Source of the DNA: Streptantibioticus rubrisoli
Lineage (GTDB): Bacteria; Actinomycetota; Actinomycetes; Streptomycetales; Streptomycetaceae
Reading direction: 5' to 3'
Assembly (NCBI RefSeq): GCF_024436055.1
Contig: NZ_JANFNH010000017.1
Location: 1 to 64,000 of the forward strand
DNA length: 64,000 nucleotides
The stretch's first letter is position 1; every line of letters begins with the position of its first letter. The position numbers and the translations under genes are program-made. Shown here one piece after another: positions 49,211 through 60,308 of the stretch. The notes below the pieces were generated by a model. The model had not been told where the DNA came from. It ran no database searches and was given only the letters and a program-made list of their open reading frames with translations.

Positions 49211-50203
49211 ATGCCTGCGAAGCCCCTGCCCAAGGCCGAACTACACCTGCACATCGAAGGCACGCTGGAGCCCGAGTTGGCGTTCGCGCTGGCTGAACGC
49301 AACGGTGTCGCCCTGCCGTACGCCACCACCGCGGAGCTGCGCAGCGCGTACTCCTTCACGGACCTGCAGTCCTTCCTGGATCTGTACTACGCGTTGATGG
49401 CCGTACTGCGAACCGAGGATGACTTCGCGGAACTGGCCGACGCCTATCTCACCCGCGCCGCCGCGCAGGGCGTACGGCACGCCGAGATCTTCTTCGACCC
49501 GCAGGCGCACACCGCGCGCGGTGTGCCGATCGGCACCGTCATCGAGGGGCTCGCCCGCGCGCTGGACGACAGCGAGCGGCGGTACGGCATCGGCACCCGG
49601 CTGATCATGTGCTTCCTGCGTGATGAGTCCGCCGACTCCGCCCTGGAGACCTTCGAGGCCGCCAGGCCGTACCTGCACCGGATCTGTGCGGTCGGCCTGG
49701 ACTCCGCCGAGGTCGGCAACCCGCCGTCGAAGTTCCGCGAGGTCTTCCGTCGCGCGGCGGAGGCCGGGCTGCACCGGGTGGCGCACGCGGGCGAGGAGGG
49801 CCCGGCCGAGTACATCACCGAGGCGCTGGACGTGCTCGGCGTGGAGCGGATCGACCACGGGCTGCGCTGCCTTGAGGATCCGGCACTGGTCGAGCGGCTG
49901 GCCCGGGAGCGGGTACCGCTCACCGTCTGCCCGCTGTCCAACGTGCGGCTGCGCTGCGTCGACCGGCTGGCGGACCATCCGCTGCGGGCGATGCTGGAGG
50001 CCGGGCTGCTGGTCACCGTCAACTCCGACGACCCGTCGTACTTCGGCGGTTACGTGGACGACAACTTCACCGCCATCCGCGACGCACTGCGCCTCGACGA
50101 CGAGACGCTGCGGTTGCTGGCCGCCAACTCCTTCCATGCGGCGTTCCTGGATGACCGGACCAGGCGCGACTACCTGGCGGAAGTGGCCGCGCACACCTTC
50201 TAG
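49211..50203 (+). CDS. Adenine-deaminase-type member of the adenosine deaminase family
   Basis: The 330-residue amidohydrolase has the metal motif with His12 and His14 in ELHLHIEGTLEPE, the helical ALAERNG region, HAGEEGP, DHGLRC and VNSDDPSYFGGY. The IEGTLEPE motif and the FGGY ending mark the adenine deaminase branch rather than true adenosine deaminase, so adenine to hypoxanthine plus ammonia is the best call. TACGAT at 49199-49204 is 6 nt before the ATG (leaderless). It is divergent from mgtC and 68 nt before the HAD-GT20 gene. Confidence 0.9.
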   Translation: MPAKPLPKAELHLHIEGTLEPELAFALAERNGVALPYATTAELRSAYSFTDLQSFLDLYYALMAVLRTEDDFAELADAYLTRAAAQGVRHAEIFFDPQAHTARGVPIGTVIEGLARALDDSERRYGIGTRLIMCFLRDESADSALETFEAARPYLHRICAVGLDSAEVGNPPSKFREVFRRAAEAGLHRVAHAGEEGPAEYITEALDVLGVERIDHGLRCLEDPALVERLARERVPLTVCPLSNVRLRCVDRLADHPLRAMLEAGLLVTVNSDDPSYFGGYVDDNFTAIRDALRLDDETLRLLAANSFHAAFLDDRTRRDYLAEVAAHTF

Positions 50204-50271: not shown

Positions 50272-52404
50272 ATGAGGGTCCTGGTCGCCGACCTGGACGG
50301 CACGTTACTCGGCGGCAGTGAGGGCCAACGGCGCGCGCTACGGGGCGCGTTGGGCCGCCACCCCGATGTCACCGTGGTCTTCGCCACCGGCCGCGGACTG
50401 CCCTCGATCCGCGCGGCGCTGCGCGACCCGCTGTTGCCCCGGCCGCGGTGGATCATCGCCGACGTCGGGGCGAGCGTCATCGACGGCGCCAGCCTGACCC
50501 CGGTCACCGCGCTGCAACGTCGGCTGCGGCTCGGCTGGCCGGGCGCCGAGCGGATGCGCGCCGCGCTGGACCGCTTCCCGGAACTGGTCTACCAGGACGG
50601 GGTGGCCCAGGACGCCCGCTGCTCGTACTACCTGCGCCCCGAAAGCCTGACACGGCGAATCACCGATGCGGTACGGGAGTTGGGCTGCGGCTGGCTGTAC
50701 TCGGCGGACCGCTACTTCGACGTACTGCCGCCGGGCGTGGACAAGGGTGCCGCGCTCGCGGCGCTCGCCCGCGAGCAGGGCTGGCCGATGGACTCCGTGC
50801 TGGTCGCGGGCGACTCGCTCAACGATCTGTCGCTGTTCGGGCTCGGCGCGCACGGCGTGCTCGTCGGCAACGCCGAGCCCGCGCTGCTCGCCGCCGTCCC
50901 GGACAACGCGACCGTGCTGCGTTCCGAACTGCCGGGAGCGGCCGGTGTACTGGCGGGACTTGAGGAACTCGGCTGGGTGGAGCACCGGTATCCGCTGGTC
51001 GTCGGCTACCACCGGCCGCCGATGCGCTGGACGCCCGACGGCTGGCGGCAGCCGTCCAGCCCCAACGGCATCCTGCCCACCCTGCGCAGCGCGCTCGACG
51101 GCAACCCGGACGCGGTATGGGCGACGGCCGCGGTGCTCGGTGAAGGCGGTGAGGACGAGCCGCTGACCGCCCCCGACTGCGGGATGCCGCTGGCTTTCTT
51201 GCGGCTGGGGCGCGAGGAGTGGGCCCGATACTTCCACCGCGCCTGCAAGGAGACGCTGTGGCCGGTGCTGATGTCCCAGCCGGAACGGCTGCGCTTCGAC
51301 TCCGGCACCTGGGCGTCCTACCGCGAGGTCAACGAGCGGTTCGCCGAGCACATCGGCGACCACGCCGCCGAGGGCGGGACCGTCTGGCTGCACGACTACA
51401 ACCTGTGGCTGGTGCCCGGACTGCTCCGCGCGGCCCGCCCGGACCTGCGGCTCGGGCTGTTCCACCACACCGCGTTCCCGCCGCCGCGGGTCTTCGCCCA
51501 ACTGCCCACCGCCGACGAACTGCGGGCCTCGCTCGGCTGCCTGGACTGGGCCGGATTCCACACCTCCGGCTTCGCGGAGAACTTCCGGCGGACCGTCCCC
51601 GGGCGGCCACGGCTCGGTGTGCATCCGCTGGGCATCGACCGTACCGCCATCGAGACGCTGGCCCGTGCCCGTGTGCCACGACGCCGTGCGGCGGACGGGC
51701 CGCTGGTGCTCTCCGTCGAGCGGCTTGACTACGCCAAGGCCCCGGCGGAGAAGGTCGAGGCGGTCGACGCGCTGCTGGAGCGCTGCCCGCAACTGCGCGG
51801 CCGACTGCGCTTCCGGCTGGTCTGCCCGCCCCCGGAGCCCGGTATCACCGCCTACGACACGACCCGCGCGGCCCTGGAGCGTCGCGTCGCCGAGGTCAAC
51901 GGCGCCTGGGAAACGGACAGTTGGCGACCGGTGGAGTACCTGCCGCGCAACCTGCCGTTCGGCGAGGTGGTAGACCACTACCTCGCCGCCGACGTGTTCT
52001 GGGTGACCTCGCTCCAGGACGGTATGAACCTCACCGCCAAGGAGTTCGTCGCCGCCCAGGCCGCCTGCGGCCTTGACGGGGTGCTGGTGCTCTCCCGGTA
52101 CGCCGGTGCCGCCGCGCGACTGGGCGGTGCGGCGCTGCTCACCGACCCCGGCTCGCCCGACGACCTGGTGGCCACCTTGCGCCGGGCCCTCACTCTCGCC
52201 CCCGAAGAACGCCGCGCCCGGTTGGCCCGCTTGTCCCGGCTGCTCGGGCACGAGCACCCCGCGCGGTGGGCGGCGCGGATCATCGCCGCCATCCAGGGCC
52301 GCGCGGAGTCAGCTGATCCCCGCCCGGTCCAGGATCCGGGCGGCCACCGCCACCGAGTCCACCAACGGGTGCATGGACATCGCGCGCAGAGCGGCGGTAC
52401 GTGA
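50272..52404 (+). CDS. HAD phosphatase - GT20 glycosyltransferase fusion (glucosylglycerol-phosphate synthase/phosphatase-like)
   Basis: The 710-residue protein fuses two enzymes. The N-terminal HAD domain (about 1-230, sucrose-phosphatase-like) has VADLDGTLL with Asp7 and Asp9, FATGRG, a lysine in GVDKGAAL and VAGDSLND (Asp181). The C-terminal GT20 domain (about 250-680) has HDYNLWLVPGLLR, LFHHTAFPPPRVF, SVERLDYAKAPAEK and DGMNLTAKEFVAAQ near 583. GT20 makes trehalose-6-phosphate or, in the GgpS branch, glucosylglycerol-phosphate; the LDYAKAPAEK and W.P..YLPRNLPF.EVVDHY pattern leans to GgpS. HAD-first fusions of that kind are known as GgpPS. The last ~32 codons overlap the convergent GH4 gene by 96 nt and look like read-through. 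Confidence 0.88.
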   Translation: MRVLVADLDGTLLGGSEGQRRALRGALGRHPDVTVVFATGRGLPSIRAALRDPLLPRPRWIIADVGASVIDGASLTPVTALQRRLRLGWPGAERMRAALDRFPELVYQDGVAQDARCSYYLRPESLTRRITDAVRELGCGWLYSADRYFDVLPPGVDKGAALAALAREQGWPMDSVLVAGDSLNDLSLFGLGAHGVLVGNAEPALLAAVPDNATVLRSELPGAAGVLAGLEELGWVEHRYPLVVGYHRPPMRWTPDGWRQPSSPNGILPTLRSALDGNPDAVWATAAVLGEGGEDEPLTAPDCGMPLAFLRLGREEWARYFHRACKETLWPVLMSQPERLRFDSGTWASYREVNERFAEHIGDHAAEGGTVWLHDYNLWLVPGLLRAARPDLRLGLFHHTAFPPPRVFAQLPTADELRASLGCLDWAGFHTSGFAENFRRTVPGRPRLGVHPLGIDRTAIETLARARVPRRRAADGPLVLSVERLDYAKAPAEKVEAVDALLERCPQLRGRLRFRLVCPPPEPGITAYDTTRAALERRVAEVNGAWETDSWRPVEYLPRNLPFGEVVDHYLAADVFWVTSLQDGMNLTAKEFVAAQAACGLDGVLVLSRYAGAAARLGGAALLTDPGSPDDLVATLRRALTLAPEERRARLARLSRLLGHEHPARWAARIIAAIQGRAESADPRPVQDPGGHRHRVHQRVHGHRAQSGGT

Positions 52405-53628
52405 ACCGGTCCGCGCCGCCTCGATGGTGGCCCGCTCCACCGCCTTCACCGACAGCATCAGCCCCGCCTGGTGGGCGTCCGGCGGGGCGACCGGCAGCGG
52501 CCGGACGCCGTTCGCGTCGACCACGCACGGCACCTCGATCACGGCGTCGGCGTCCAGCGCGTCGACCGTACCGGCGTTCGGGACGTTGAGGATCAACGTG
52601 GCGCGTTCGTCATGGGCGATCGCCCGCATCAGGGCGAGCGCCACCCGGTCGTAGCCGCCGCCCTCCAGGTCCTCGGCGTCCCGCTCCCAACCACCGGACG
52701 CCGCGCGGCTCGCGGCGCCGTAGGTCACCTCGCGCTCCAGGCGGGTGTGCTCCCACAACTCGGCGGCGTCGGTGGGCCGCGCCGCGGCCCGCTCGAAGAA
52801 CACGGCCTGCTGGCGCTCCAGGAACTCACCGCGAGTGGTCTCACCGGAGCGGACCGCCTCGATCGCCTCCCGGGTGAAGTAGTAGTAGTGCAGGTACTCG
52901 TTGGGGATCGAACCCAGGGTGCGCAGCCACTGGGCGCCGAACAGCCTGCCCTCCTCGAACGAGGTCAACGCCGCCTCGTCTTCCAGTAGTTGGGGCAGCA
53001 GGTCCCGCCCGCCGAAGTCCAACCGGCGCAGCCAGCCGAGGTGGTTGAGGCCGACGTAGTCATAGCCCACCGTGTCCGGATCGGCCCCCGCGGCCCGCGC
53101 CGCCCGCCGTACCAGGCCCACCGGGGAGTCACAGATGCCGATCACCCGCGGGCCCAGCACCCGGTGCATCGCCTCCGTCACCATCCCCGCCGGATTGGTG
53201 AAGTTGATCAGCCAGGCGTCCGGTGCCACCGCCCGCACCCGCTCGGCGATGCGCACCGCCTCCGGCAGTATCCGCAGCCCGTACAGCACCCCGCCCGCGC
53301 CCACCGTCTCCTGACCGAGCACCCCCTCGGCCAACGGGATCCGCTCATCGCGCACCCGGCCCGCCATACCGCCCACGCGGATCGCGGAGAAGACGAAGTC
53401 CGCGCCGCGCAGCGCGTCGTCCAGGCTCTGCGCGATCCGCACCACGGGCGCGCCGGGGGCACTGTGCGCCTGGGCGGCGAGCACACAGGCGATCACCGAA
53501 AGCCGCCGGTGGTCGGTGTCGTACAGCACCAACTCCCGGACCGCGCCCGGCGTTCCGGGTTCCGCGAACAGGGACCGGTACACCAGCGGCACGCGGAATC
53601 CGCCTCCACCGAGAATCGTCAGCCGCAC
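52309..53628 (-). CDS. GH4-family 6-phospho-glycosidase
   Basis: The 439-residue NAD- and metal-dependent glycosidase has the Rossmann start LTILGGGGFRVPLVY, VFSAIRVGGMAGR, QETVGAGG, NFTNPAGMVTEAM and the metal-binding motif ICDSP with Cys166. In GH4 the residues after this cysteine track substrate type (CDMP for 6-phospho-alpha-, CNVP for 6-phospho-beta-glucosides); CDSP is intermediate but nearer the alpha type. GTG 53628 follows GGGAGGAAGC. It is divergent from the PfkB kinase (122-nt gap) and converges on the HAD-GT20 gene. Confidence 0.92.
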   Translation of the reverse strand: MRLTILGGGGFRVPLVYRSLFAEPGTPGAVRELVLYDTDHRRLSVIACVLAAQAHSAPGAPVVRIAQSLDDALRGADFVFSAIRVGGMAGRVRDERIPLAEGVLGQETVGAGGVLYGLRILPEAVRIAERVRAVAPDAWLINFTNPAGMVTEAMHRVLGPRVIGICDSPVGLVRRAARAAGADPDTVGYDYVGLNHLGWLRRLDFGGRDLLPQLLEDEAALTSFEEGRLFGAQWLRTLGSIPNEYLHYYYFTREAIEAVRSGETTRGEFLERQQAVFFERAAARPTDAAELWEHTRLEREVTYGAASRAASGGWERDAEDLEGGGYDRVALALMRAIAHDERATLILNVPNAGTVDALDADAVIEVPCVVDANGVRPLPVAPPDAHQAGLMLSVKAVERATIEAARTGSRTAALRAMSMHPLVDSVAVAARILDRAGIS

Positions 53629-53750
53629 GCTTCCTCCCTTTCCGGCGGAACCTGGTCGTACGTCCTGTGACGCTGCCTTCACCGCGTACCCCGTTCTCCT
53701 GGGGCACAGTGTGCAGCACGCGATCACGCGCACGCCGGAAGGAGCCACTG

Positions 53751-54836
53751 GTGGCAGACCAACCCGTCCTCGACCCGCTCGCCGCGGTCCGCACCCCGGC
53801 CGACCCGGCGACCGACGTCTATCTGACCGGAACCGTGTTCCTGGACATCATCTTCACCGGCCTCGACAGCGCCCCGGTGCGCGGCACCGAGTCGTGGGCG
53901 CGCGGCATGGGCTCCAGCCCTGGCGGCGTGGCCAACATGGCGACCGCGCTCGCCCGGCTCGGCCTGCGCACCTCGCTCGCGGCGGCGTTCGGCGACGACA
54001 TGTACGGCGACTACTGCTGGGAGTCCCTGGAGCGGGACGAGGGCATCGACCTGTCGCTGTCCCGCCGGGTGCCCGGCTGGCACTCACCGGTCACCGTCTC
54101 CATGGCGTACGAGGGCGAACGCACCATGGTCAGCCACGGCCATGAGGCGCCGCCCCCGGAGGAGCCCGCGCCGGTGTGCCCGCCGCCCGCCCGCGCCTGC
54201 GTGGCGTCCCTCACCCCCGGGCGCCGGGAGGAGTGGCTCGGGCACGCCGCCCGGCACGGCAGCCGGATCTTCGCCGACGTCGGCTGGGACGACTCCGGGC
54301 GCTGGGACCCCGGTGACCTGGCCGACCTGCGCCACTGCGAGGCGTTCCTGCCGAACGCGGCCGAGGCGATGCGCTACACCCGCACCGAGTGCCCGCGCCA
54401 GGCCGCCAGGGCGCTCGCCGAACTGGTGCCGTTGGCCGTCGTCACTTTGGGCGAACAGGGCGCGTACGCGGTTGACTCGGCGAGCGGCGAGGCCGCCGAG
54501 GTGCCCGCGCTGACCGTGGACGCGCTGGACCCGACCGGCGCCGGTGATGTGTTCGTCGCCGGGTTCATCACCGGCACGCTCGCCGACTGGCCGCTCACCG
54601 ACCGGCTCGCCTTCGCCAGCCTGACCGCGGCGCTGTCCGTCCAGGAGTTCGGCGGTTCGCTCTCCGCGCCCGGCTGGATCGAGATCGCCGCCTGGTGGCA
54701 GCACGCCAAGCACTACGACGACCAGGACCGAGCCGCGCTGCGCCGCTACGCCTTCCTGGACGACCTCCTGCCCTGCGGCGTCCGCCGCTGGCCGCTGCGC
54801 CGCGCGGTCCCGACGATCGGGTTCCGGCAGCCGTAG
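53751..54836 (+). CDS. PfkB-family sugar kinase
   Basis: The 361-residue ribokinase-fold enzyme has the N-terminal substrate motif SSPGGVANMATALARLG and the C-terminal signature LDPTGAGDVFVAGF with catalytic Asp266. The N-terminal GTVFLDIIFTGLDSAPVRGTE segment is typical of the family. PfkB enzymes phosphorylate sugars or nucleosides; the adjoining phospho-glycosidase suggests a glycoside or hexose substrate. GTG 53751 has AAGGAG 7 nt upstream. No transporter gene lies next to the group. Confidence 0.9.
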   Translation: MADQPVLDPLAAVRTPADPATDVYLTGTVFLDIIFTGLDSAPVRGTESWARGMGSSPGGVANMATALARLGLRTSLAAAFGDDMYGDYCWESLERDEGIDLSLSRRVPGWHSPVTVSMAYEGERTMVSHGHEAPPPEEPAPVCPPPARACVASLTPGRREEWLGHAARHGSRIFADVGWDDSGRWDPGDLADLRHCEAFLPNAAEAMRYTRTECPRQAARALAELVPLAVVTLGEQGAYAVDSASGEAAEVPALTVDALDPTGAGDVFVAGFITGTLADWPLTDRLAFASLTAALSVQEFGGSLSAPGWIEIAAWWQHAKHYDDQDRAALRRYAFLDDLLPCGVRRWPLRRAVPTIGFRQP

Positions 54837-55016: not shown

Positions 55017-56057
55017 ATGACACAGACACCCACGCAGCAGCAACCGCAGGCGCGCGCACACTTCGTCGTACCGGCCAAGCACCCCATGGTCACCGTTCTG
55101 GGATCGGGTGATTCGCTGCTGCGCGTGATCGAGCGGGCGTTCCCCACCGTGGACATCCATGTCCGTGGCAACGAGGTCAGCGCTGCCGGAGACGCGCCGG
55201 AAGTCGCCCTGGTGCAGCGCCTTTTCGACGAGATGATGCTGGTGCTGCGCACCGGCGCGCCGATGACGGAGGACGCAGTGGAGCGGTCGATCGCCATGCT
55301 CCGGCAGGACAGCGGACCGGACGGCCTGGAGGAGACCCCCGCGCAGGTCCTCACCCAGAACATCCTCTCCAGCCGCGGCCGCACCATCCGCCCCAAGACG
55401 CTCAACCAGAAGCGGTACGTCGACGCGATCGACAAGCACACCATCGTCTTCGGCATCGGCCCGGCCGGTACCGGCAAGACCTATCTGGCGATGGCCAAGG
55501 CCGTTCAGGCGCTGCAGTCCAAGCAGGTCAACCGGATCATCCTCACCCGGCCCGCCGTGGAGGCGGGCGAGCGGCTCGGCTTCCTGCCCGGCACGCTCTA
55601 CGAGAAGATCGACCCGTACCTGCGCCCGCTGTACGACGCGCTGCACGACATGATCGACCCCGACTCGATCCCCCGGCTGATGGCGAACGGCACCATCGAG
55701 GTCGCCCCGCTCGCCTACATGCGCGGCCGCACCCTCAACGACGCCTTCATCATCCTGGACGAGGCCCAGAACACCTCCGCCGAGCAGATGAAGATGTTCC
55801 TGACCCGCCTGGGCTTCGACTCCAAGGTCGTCGTCACCGGCGACATCACCCAGGTCGACCTGCCCGGCGGCACCAAGAGCGGACTGCGGCAGGTGGTGGA
55901 GATCCTCGACGGCGTCCAGGACGTCCACTTCGCCCGGCTCACCAGCACCGACGTGGTGCGCCACAAGCTGGTCGGCCGGATCGTGGACGCCTACGAGGCC
56001 TATGACAAACGCAACGGCGGCCCTACCGGCAGCGGCCACGCCAGCAAGGGAAAGTAA
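55017..56057 (+). CDS. PhoH-family ATPase
   Basis: The 346-residue protein has the PhoH core: P-loop GPAGTGKT at 148-155, [18 protein letters not shown], and the Walker B-type FIILDEAQN followed by [21 protein letters not shown]. PhoH-like (PhoL) proteins act in RNA metabolism, often with YbeY, which is encoded 13 nt downstream. The N-terminal ~110 residues form the KH-like domain of the PhoL group. It heads a phoH-ybeY-CBS operon. Confidence 0.95.
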
Positions 56058-57931: not shown

Positions 57932-59338
57932 TCACCGGCGCCGCAGACCCCAGGCCGTGGCCACCGCCGCCGCCGCGACGATCGCGGCGTCCACGCCGAA
58001 TCCCAGGCGGACGCCGTCCAGCAGGCTGGCACGGGACGCGGCCAGCGCGCCGAGCAGCGGAATGCCGATCGTCATGCCCAACTGCTGGGAGCTGGTGACC
58101 AGTCCGGTCGCCAACCCCTGCTCGTGGTCGGGCAGTGCGGAGGTGGCGACGATGCCGTACGAGACGATCGCCCACAGGTGCCCGACGCACGCGATCGTCG
58201 CCGCGGCCAGCGCCAGCCACGTACCGTACGAACCGCCGCCCACGAAGACCAGCGCCGCCGTCACCACCGCCTGCAGCAGCAGGCCGCCCACCAGCGTCCT
58301 GCGCACCCCGAACCGGCCCACCACGCGTGCCGCCGTCGCACCGGTCACCGCGGCGCCGAGCCCCTGCACACCGAAGACCAGACCGGTCTGGAACGCGTTC
58401 AGCCCGCGCACCTCCTGCAGGTACAGGGTGAGCATGAAGATCACCGTGCTCATCATCGAGAACGTGGTGATCCCGGCCAGGTTGCCCCACGCCACCGAGG
58501 GGCGGCGCAGCATCCGCAGCGAGACCATCGGCTCGGCCACCCGCGACTCGACCACCACGAAGGCGGCCAGCAGCGCCACACCCGCCACCAGCGCCACGAT
58601 CACATCGGCACCGCCGAAGCCGCGCTGCGAGGCCGTGGACAGCGCGTAGATCAACGCCAGCAGGCCACCGGTGACGGTCACCGCACCCGGCACGTCGACG
58701 CGCGCCCGCAGGGCGTTTCGCGACTCGGTGAGCAGCCCCGGCGCGGCGGCCAGCACCAGCGCTCCGGCGATGCCGAGCAGCCCCATCGTGGAGCGCCAGC
58801 CGAACGTGTCCGTCAACGTGCCGCCGAGCACCATGCCGACGGTGAAGCCCAGCGACATCAGGGTGCCGCTGATGCCCAACGCCCGCTCGCGCTGCGGGCC
58901 TTCGGGGAACGTGGTGGTCAGCAGCGACATCCCGGTCGGCACGATGACCGCGGCGCCCAGCCCCTGCACCGCCCGGCCCACCAGGAACACCGTCGGGTCC
59001 CAGGCCAGGGTGGCCAGCACCGACGCCGCGGTGAACACCGCCAGCCCGGTGAGGAACATCCGGCGCCGCCCGAACAGGTCGGCGACCCGGCCGAACAGCA
59101 GAAGGAAACCGCCGGACGGCAGGGCGAACGCGGTGACCGCCCACTGCAGGTTGGCCTGGCTCATGCCGAGGTCCCGGCCGAGCACCGGCAGTGCGACGTT
59201 CAGGATGGAGAAGTCGAGCGCGATCATGAACTGGGCCGCGCAGAGGACGAGGAGGACCAGCTTGGCACGGATGGTCAGCCGTGCGGGCGCCGCGTCAACG
59301 GCGGCGGTGGTCAGTGGAGTTGGTGTGTCGATCGCCAT
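57932..59338 (-). CDS. MFS drug exporter, DHA2/QacA-like (module 2)
   Basis: The 468-residue transporter shows ALDFSILNVALPVLGRDLG, FGRVADLFGRRRMFLTG, GRAVQGLGAAVIVPTGMSLL and further helices expected of a 14-helix exporter. A small-molecule efflux role is likely; the substrate is unknown. It is divergent from a MmyB-type regulator 94 nt away, the same arrangement as at 13566-16127, and the gap has an inverted repeat (59389-59407). Confidence 0.92.
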   Translation of the reverse strand: MAIDTPTPLTTAAVDAAPARLTIRAKLVLLVLCAAQFMIALDFSILNVALPVLGRDLGMSQANLQWAVTAFALPSGGFLLLFGRVADLFGRRRMFLTGLAVFTAASVLATLAWDPTVFLVGRAVQGLGAAVIVPTGMSLLTTTFPEGPQRERALGISGTLMSLGFTVGMVLGGTLTDTFGWRSTMGLLGIAGALVLAAAPGLLTESRNALRARVDVPGAVTVTGGLLALIYALSTASQRGFGGADVIVALVAGVALLAAFVVVESRVAEPMVSLRMLRRPSVAWGNLAGITTFSMMSTVIFMLTLYLQEVRGLNAFQTGLVFGVQGLGAAVTGATAARVVGRFGVRRTLVGGLLLQAVVTAALVFVGGGSYGTWLALAAATIACVGHLWAIVSYGIVATSALPDHEQGLATGLVTSSQQLGMTIGIPLLGALAASRASLLDGVRLGFGVDAAIVAAAAVATAWGLRRR

Positions 59339-59432: not shown

Positions 59433-60308
59433 GTGGAACAGCCGGTCAAGTCCTTGAAGTCACCGCGCCGTCAGGAACTGCGTGAGTTCCTGATGAACCG
59501 CCGCGCCAGGGTCACCCCCGCGCAGGCCGGGCTACCGGACGGCGGAGCGCGCCGCCGCACTCCCGGGCTGCGCCGCGAGGAGGTCGCGGTGCTCGCCGGA
59601 GTCGGCGCTTCCTGGTACCAGTGGCTGGAGCAGGGCCGGGACATCTCCGTCTCGCCGCAGGTGCTGGACTCGGTGGCCCGGGTGCTGCGGCTCAACGGCG
59701 CCGAGCGGCGCCATCTCTACGTACTCGCCGGGCTCAACCCCCCGTTGCCGCGGGCCGAATCGCGCGAGGGGTCCTGCGAGGGGCTCAAGCGGCTGATCGA
59801 CGCCTGGATGCCGTTCCCGGCGCACATCATGGACGCGTACTGGAACATCGTCGCCTTCAACGAGGCGGCCGGGCTCACCTTCGGCTTCGGCGAGAGCGAC
59901 ACCAACTGCCTGGTCAGCTTCTTCACCAACGAGGTCTACCGCAGCCGCGCCAACACCAGCGGCGCCATCGCCGCGTCGGTCGTCGCCCAGTACCGGGCCG
60001 CCGCCTCCGAGCACCCGGACGACCAGGGATTCCGTGCGGTGGTGGACGAACTGGCCGCGGTCAGCGGGCAGTTCGCGGAGCTGTGGGCGCGCGGTGACGT
60101 CCAGCCCAGTGGGCAGATGGTGAAGGAGATCGTGCATCCGGTGGTCGGTTCGCTGCGTTTCGAGAGCACACAGTTGCGGATCCCGGCCCGGCCGGACCTG
60201 ACCATCGTGATGCACAACCCGGTGCCGGGCACCGAGACCGCCGAGAAGCTGGAGCGGCTGGTCTCGCCGGAGGGCCGCCGGGAAACCATCCGCCCGGTGG
60301 CCAGTTGA
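59433..60308 (+). CDS. MmyB-type XRE-family transcriptional regulator (module 2)
   Basis: The 291-residue protein has an N-terminal helix-turn-helix (RRRTPGLRREEVAVLAGVGASWYQWLEQGR) and the MmyB ligand-binding domain (PFPAHIMDAYWNIVAFNEAA, then HPVVGSLRFESTQLRI). It is closely related in layout to the regulator at 13566. It probably represses the divergent MFS gene, with the ligand being an exported compound. GTG 59433 has GGGGGAGAAC just upstream. The downstream cytidine-deaminase-like gene is 22 nt away but has its own predicted -10 box. Confidence 0.92.
   Translation: MEQPVKSLKSPRRQELREFLMNRRARVTPAQAGLPDGGARRRTPGLRREEVAVLAGVGASWYQWLEQGRDISVSPQVLDSVARVLRLNGAERRHLYVLAGLNPPLPRAESREGSCEGLKRLIDAWMPFPAHIMDAYWNIVAFNEAAGLTFGFGESDTNCLVSFFTNEVYRSRANTSGAIAASVVAQYRAAASEHPDDQGFRAVVDELAAVSGQFAELWARGDVQPSGQMVKEIVHPVVGSLRFESTQLRIPARPDLTIVMHNPVPGTETAEKLERLVSPEGRRETIRPVAS

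Follow-up and report, generated by a model that had tools for sequence, protein, structure and literature searches.

The window analysed here comprises 64,000 nucleotides of Streptantibioticus rubrisoli (NZ_JANFNH010000017.1, positions 1-64,000), and between positions 50272 and 54836 it carries three adjacent genes for putative sugar-phosphate enzymes. The first, on the forward strand (50272-52404), encodes a protein of 710 residues in which an N-terminal HAD-IIB/S6PP-type phosphatase domain (50275-50964, forward) is fused to a C-terminal GT20 domain (51037-52314, forward). This fusion gene is convergent with a GH4 phospho-glycosidase gene on the reverse strand (52309-53628), the two overlapping tail to tail by 96 bp (52309-52404), a detail absent from the initial annotation, and the GH4 gene is in turn divergent from a forward-strand gene for a PfkB carbohydrate kinase (53751-54836; P0003), from which it is separated by 122 bp (53629-53750). 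Both the GH4 and PfkB genes start with GTG, each preceded by a Shine-Dalgarno-like sequence (GGAGG 5' of GH4 and AGGAG at 53740, 5' of PfkB), and the three genes do not form a single operon. To the left lies an adenosine deaminase gene, ada (49211-50203, forward), and to the right a PhoH-like gene (55017-56057, forward), which is the right border of a conserved chromosomal locus. No sugar transporter is adjacent to the three genes, as the initial annotation had stated. Farther out, beyond PhoH, inspection of the translations by eye revealed an MFS-type transporter (57932-59338, reverse) with a divergent helix-turn-helix regulator (59433-60308, forward), both unrelated to the set.

Pfam matches were obtained for all three proteins, in agreement with the span and the domain calls originally proposed. 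In the fusion, residues 2-231 match S6PP (E 1.6e-45), with the HAD motifs DLDGT, ATGR, DKGA and GDSLND all intact, and the C-terminal half matches Glyco_transf_20 (E 7.3e-73). The phosphatase domain shares 97 of 233 aligned residues with the HAD protein encoded beside Tistrella GgpS. The best NCBIfam model for the GT20 domain is GgpS (TIGR02398, 319.4 bits), with OtsA (TIGR02400) at 281.2 bits, and the domain reaches neither the equivalog cut-off of the former (569 bits) nor the curated cut-off of the latter (564.85 bits). Its top PDB matches are solved trehalose-phosphate synthases, and its similarity to VldE is weak (E 7e-5). Three annotated plasmid copies of the fusion carry the sole label "HAD-IIB family hydrolase", which hides the glycosyltransferase half of the protein.

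To place the GT20 domain, we used a rapid search to build a tree of 96 domains (33 fusions, 31 GgpS and 32 OtsA), some branches of which are long; VldE, cyanobacterial GgpS and the fused GgpPS already characterised lay outside this set. The tree resolves three clean groups, in which the 33 fusions form a single clade that is sister to GgpS and outside OtsA (SH-aLRT 99 and 100); the fusions are not nested within GgpS and sit on a long stem (1.71). Acceptor-contact and donor-site residues described for OtsA (PMC6879718) were then mapped by alignment to solved OtsA. The arginine that contacts the acceptor phosphate (Arg300 in the E. coli enzyme, Arg324 in that of M. thermoresistibile) is present in 32/32 OtsA sequences, whereas this column holds Glu in all 33 fusions (Glu522 in the window) and Ala or Asn in GgpS. 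Furthermore, OtsA Tyr76 is replaced by Phe (F321), and the His/Gln132 position is occupied by Asn (N377), as in GgpS, while the acceptor contacts Arg9 (R248) and Asp130 (D375) are kept. The donor-site residues R484, K489 and D583 are retained, and the base pocket (V517, P519 and V566) is hydrophobic, like that of the UDP-type E. coli enzyme. Because the donor side and the HAD motifs are both intact, we predict from sequence that the fusion functions both as synthase and as phosphatase, its acceptor pocket being altered.

These results bear directly on the possibility that the GT20 domain makes trehalose-6-phosphate in the manner of OtsA, with which it shares the GT20 family, the donor-site residues and its best structural matches. 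The fusion clade lies apart from OtsA, in accordance with the initial view that the domain is not a plain OtsA; the acceptor arginine is Glu throughout the clade; and the window genome has its own OtsA-type GT20 gene elsewhere (L001, 1489-2940, reverse), so trehalose synthesis need not depend on the fusion. On the basis of the tree and the residues, we reject an OtsA role as highly improbable. A VldE/ValL-type enzyme is likewise not indicated: the VldE phosphate contact Arg326 is conserved in OtsA (PMC3441724), and the equivalent column in the fusion, located through OtsA because VldE itself was outside the alignment, is the same Glu.

The resemblance to GgpS requires closer consideration. Fused GgpPS proteins, in which the phosphatase precedes the GT20 domain in one polypeptide as it does in the window, are known in Marinobacter, Pseudomonas, Azotobacter and Stenotrophomonas (PMC10873239), a likeness of architecture rather than of directly compared sequence. 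The Marinobacter GgpPS is paired with a glucosylglycerol phosphorylase (GH13_18), whereas the window fusion is accompanied by PfkB and GH4 (PMC10873239). We also compared 80 GgpS (L064-L147; Tistrella, Dinoroseobacter and others), none of which is fused and none of which has PfkB at its locus. Among the 72 loci with enough upstream sequence, an HAD gene lies directly upstream in every case and gpsA upstream in 57. The product of gpsA makes glycerol-3-phosphate, the acceptor for GgpS. These loci resemble the window fusion in HAD type, in the YHR and SPNG motifs and in the logic of the reaction, but GgpS shares only about 35% identity with the window GT20 domain, is unfused, has other acceptor residues and has gpsA where the window has a kinase. 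It could thus be argued that the fusion is simply a diverged GgpPS that uses glycerol-3-phosphate and that its neighbours are incidental, since its best family model is GgpS, its domain order is that of the fused enzymes of Marinobacter and Pseudomonas, and the YHR and SPNG motifs are common to both. We nevertheless consider this unlikely, given a score far under the GgpS cut-off, the length of the stem, the change of residues that are invariant in GgpS (Trp to Ala286 and Tyr to Phe321), and a linkage to a kinase instead of gpsA. Of the product types proposed in the initial annotation, glucosylglycerol is no more than a candidate, because the acceptor pocket differs from those of both GgpS and OtsA. 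Genuine GgpS also occurs in actinobacterial MAGs (L089, L099 and L100; Ilumatobacter and Nitriliruptoraceae), where it is distinct from the Streptomycetaceae fusions.

The fusion was present in 26 of 150 Streptomycetaceae genomes and in 30 of 70 genomes of one genus, g14, and a search of 396 genomes across the phylum (E 1e-70) matched the window genome alone, which indicates that the family is narrow. Carriers among plasmid records are Kitasatospora NBC_00039, Embleya NBC_00888, and Streptomyces NBC_01006, NBC_01001 and BHT-5-2; from these named carriers, g14 is probably Kitasatospora and g5 probably Embleya. In all three genomes of the window genus the fusion lies between ada and GH4, whereas at L255 and L260, which lack it, the gap between these two genes is only about 29-72 bp as judged by match ends. 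This empty site indicates that the fusion was inserted into an old locus, with ada as its left border. Relatives of GH4 and of PfkB are each found in 87/150 family genomes, in many cases as divergent neighbours flanked by ada and PhoH, and these two genes are a true, ancient pair, to which the HAD-GT20 gene is a younger, accessory addition. The fusion and GH4 overlap in antisense by 96 bp both here and in G013 (L035), compared with just 8 bp in G026 (L036); the long overlap probably reflects loss of a stop codon after insertion. The three genes travel together in the window genus (3/3 genomes), and there alone; elsewhere they occur as two separate modules, PfkB with HAD-GT20 and GH4 with PfkB. 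The initial interpretation is partly supported, and neither of the two outcomes it had named as refuting, a GT20 domain clearly within OtsA or three genes co-conserved nowhere, was observed. No account of a HAD-GT20 protein from Streptomycetaceae or of the PfkB-GH4 pair emerged from our literature searches.

The window GH4 matches the Pfam N and C domains of the family (E 4e-39 and 2e-52, respectively). Its CDSP and GLNHLGW motifs, which are kept in 15 of 16 relatives (CDTP in the remaining one), contain the Cys-Asp and GLNHxGW signatures of 6-phospho-alpha-glucosidases. In PDB alignments, they lie closer to the CDMP/GLNHFGW of the 6-phospho-alpha type (maltose-6'-phosphate glucosidase 1u8x) than to the CNVP/GLNHMVF of the 6-phospho-beta-glucosidase 1s6y, as had been noted from the motif. 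The window enzyme departs from the GlvA type in having CDSP instead of CDMP, in its association with PfkB, and in the ABC importer found beside its relatives. In several Streptomyces-type genomes, the GH4-PfkB relatives are accompanied by a DeoR regulator, a solute-binding protein and two permeases, and some of these groups add GH38, GH29 and GH2 enzymes. Sugars brought in by ABC importers of this sort carry no phosphate, and the CD-type GH4 enzymes already known, such as GlvA, act on 6-phosphorylated ones, so PfkB would most likely phosphorylate the glycoside before GH4 cleaves it.

Several individual loci illustrate the range of these settings. The operon-like groups at L252 (3266-17107) and L281 (2616-15210), which combine GH4, DeoR, PfkB, an ABC sugar importer, a GH38 alpha-mannosidase and GH2, with a GH29 alpha-fucosidase additionally in L252, suggest glycan salvage. 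On a Curtobacterium plasmid (L282, 5010-8945), a glucosamine-6-phosphate deaminase gene accompanies GH4 (CDTP), DeoR and PfkB, a hint that GH4 may yield a phosphorylated amino sugar in this branch. Sinorhizobium meliloti pSymB (L283, 6589-13177) carries GntR, GH4 (CDGA), PfkB and an ABC importer.

The window kinase has a PfkB profile match over the cut-off (E 2.2e-35) and the GAGD catalytic motif, within DPTGAGDVF, and no usable substrate was indicated for it by NCBIfam kinase models. Since the conserved locus has ada on its left, one might suppose that it is a nucleoside kinase paired with the deaminase and that its link to sugars is due to chance; however, at loci away from ada the same lineage accompanies GH4 and ABC importers of sugars, and from this genomic context we attach hardly any weight to such a role. 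Fusions in other genera are often preceded directly by a same-strand PfkB gene of their own, at a distance of about 20-80 bp in several cases, and the flanks of this module otherwise vary. A second PfkB was found in 17 of the 70 g14 genomes, always just upstream of the fusion, that is, in 17/30 genomes with the fusion and in 0/40 without it (Fisher p 1.5e-8, with relatedness not corrected). The best match of this kinase in the window genome is P0003 (35%, E 4.3e-30; next 5e-12). In the PfkB tree, the GT20-linked and GH4-linked kinases are sister clades (99/96) that exclude the eight other PfkBs of the genome; when the Curtobacterium and Sinorhizobium kinases are added, the combined group has support of 92/93, and the nearest relative of the GT20-linked clade is the GH4-linked kinase of S. 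meliloti pSymB (100/99). The fusion is thus tied to one PfkB lineage in two settings, through its own copy elsewhere and through P0003, as GH4-linked kinase, in the window. The co-occurrence in g14 and the nesting of the lineage among GH4-linked kinases make the kinase link of the fusion well supported, as the initial annotation had supposed from adjacency; involvement of GH4 with the fusion is plausible.

What the kinase does for the fusion may be viewed in two ways. PfkB might phosphorylate an acceptor, which the GT20 domain would glucosylate and the HAD domain would then dephosphorylate, with GH4 being a chance neighbour or removing other phospho-glycosides. That PfkB, absent from all GgpS loci examined, here holds the place occupied there by the acceptor supplier gpsA makes this a serious rival to salvage; the acceptor pocket, unlike that of GgpS, is in keeping with it, as is the occurrence of the PfkB-fusion module in g14, where the GH4 genes checked (n=30) are of the CNVA rather than the CD type. 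Against it, 13 of the 30 g14 genomes with the fusion lack the kinase, no recurrent alternative acceptor-supplying enzyme was found beside HAD-GT20 genes that lack PfkB, and the kinase lineage is nested among GH4-linked, importer-linked kinases. We therefore regard acceptor supply as a possible but doubtful role. The 13 genomes also mean that neither salvage nor acceptor supply is absolute and, together with the CNVA type of GH4, that a make-and-recycle set is not needed in g14.

The reading that we favour, albeit tentatively and short of even odds, is that the fusion resembles GgpS, acts as synthase and phosphatase to produce a neutral glucoside, and is coupled to a kinase/GH4 salvage pair. 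A nucleotide sugar would donate the glucose, which the GT20 domain would transfer to a small acceptor bearing a phosphate; this acceptor would be something other than glucose-6-phosphate and probably also other than plain glycerol-3-phosphate. The HAD domain would then strip the phosphate to leave a neutral alpha-glucoside. In an ancestor of the window genus, the fusion would have been inserted beside the older divergent PfkB-GH4 pair, relatives of which work with ABC sugar importers; in those settings the kinase most likely phosphorylates the incoming glycoside, and GH4 then splits the phospho-glycoside. The window set would most likely both make and recycle a glucoside, the kinase connecting the two processes. 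What is real about the grouping is a pair of linked modules that differ in age, with domains, motifs, phylogenetic position and gene linkage observed directly; the shared pathway, first proposed from adjacency, is a well-founded hypothesis in which we infer the substrates, the direction of the kinase step and a single shared metabolite. Besides the g14 genomes, several observations weigh against it: all three genes were joined by one insertion event only, such that their adjacency could be luck; they do not share an operon in the window; and the GH38, GH29 and GH2 enzymes of the Streptomyces operons speak for a glycan instead of an osmolyte.

More broadly, we consider it conceivable, if somewhat less probable than the coupling just described, that the fusion clade represents a further acceptor class of GT20 enzymes in Kitasatospora, Embleya and related genera, soil bacteria akin to Streptomyces, which acts on a phosphorylated acceptor other than glucose-6-phosphate or glycerol-3-phosphate and, with its PfkB module, yields an undescribed glucoside serving as an osmolyte or signal. 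Should this hold, some 17% of the Streptomycetaceae genomes in our sample (26/150), and 30/70 in one genus, encode an enzyme for an unnamed small glucoside, which may have a protective or signalling role, in a group intensively mined for metabolites; where bacteria take up sugars via ABC transporters, GH4 phospho-glycosidases would likewise have this PfkB lineage as their partner. At L038, L059 and L061-L063, the HAD-GT20 gene either lies about 8 kb from the end of a contig that is a nearly complete chromosome (G133) or is borne on a large linear plasmid, positions that fit accessory genes.
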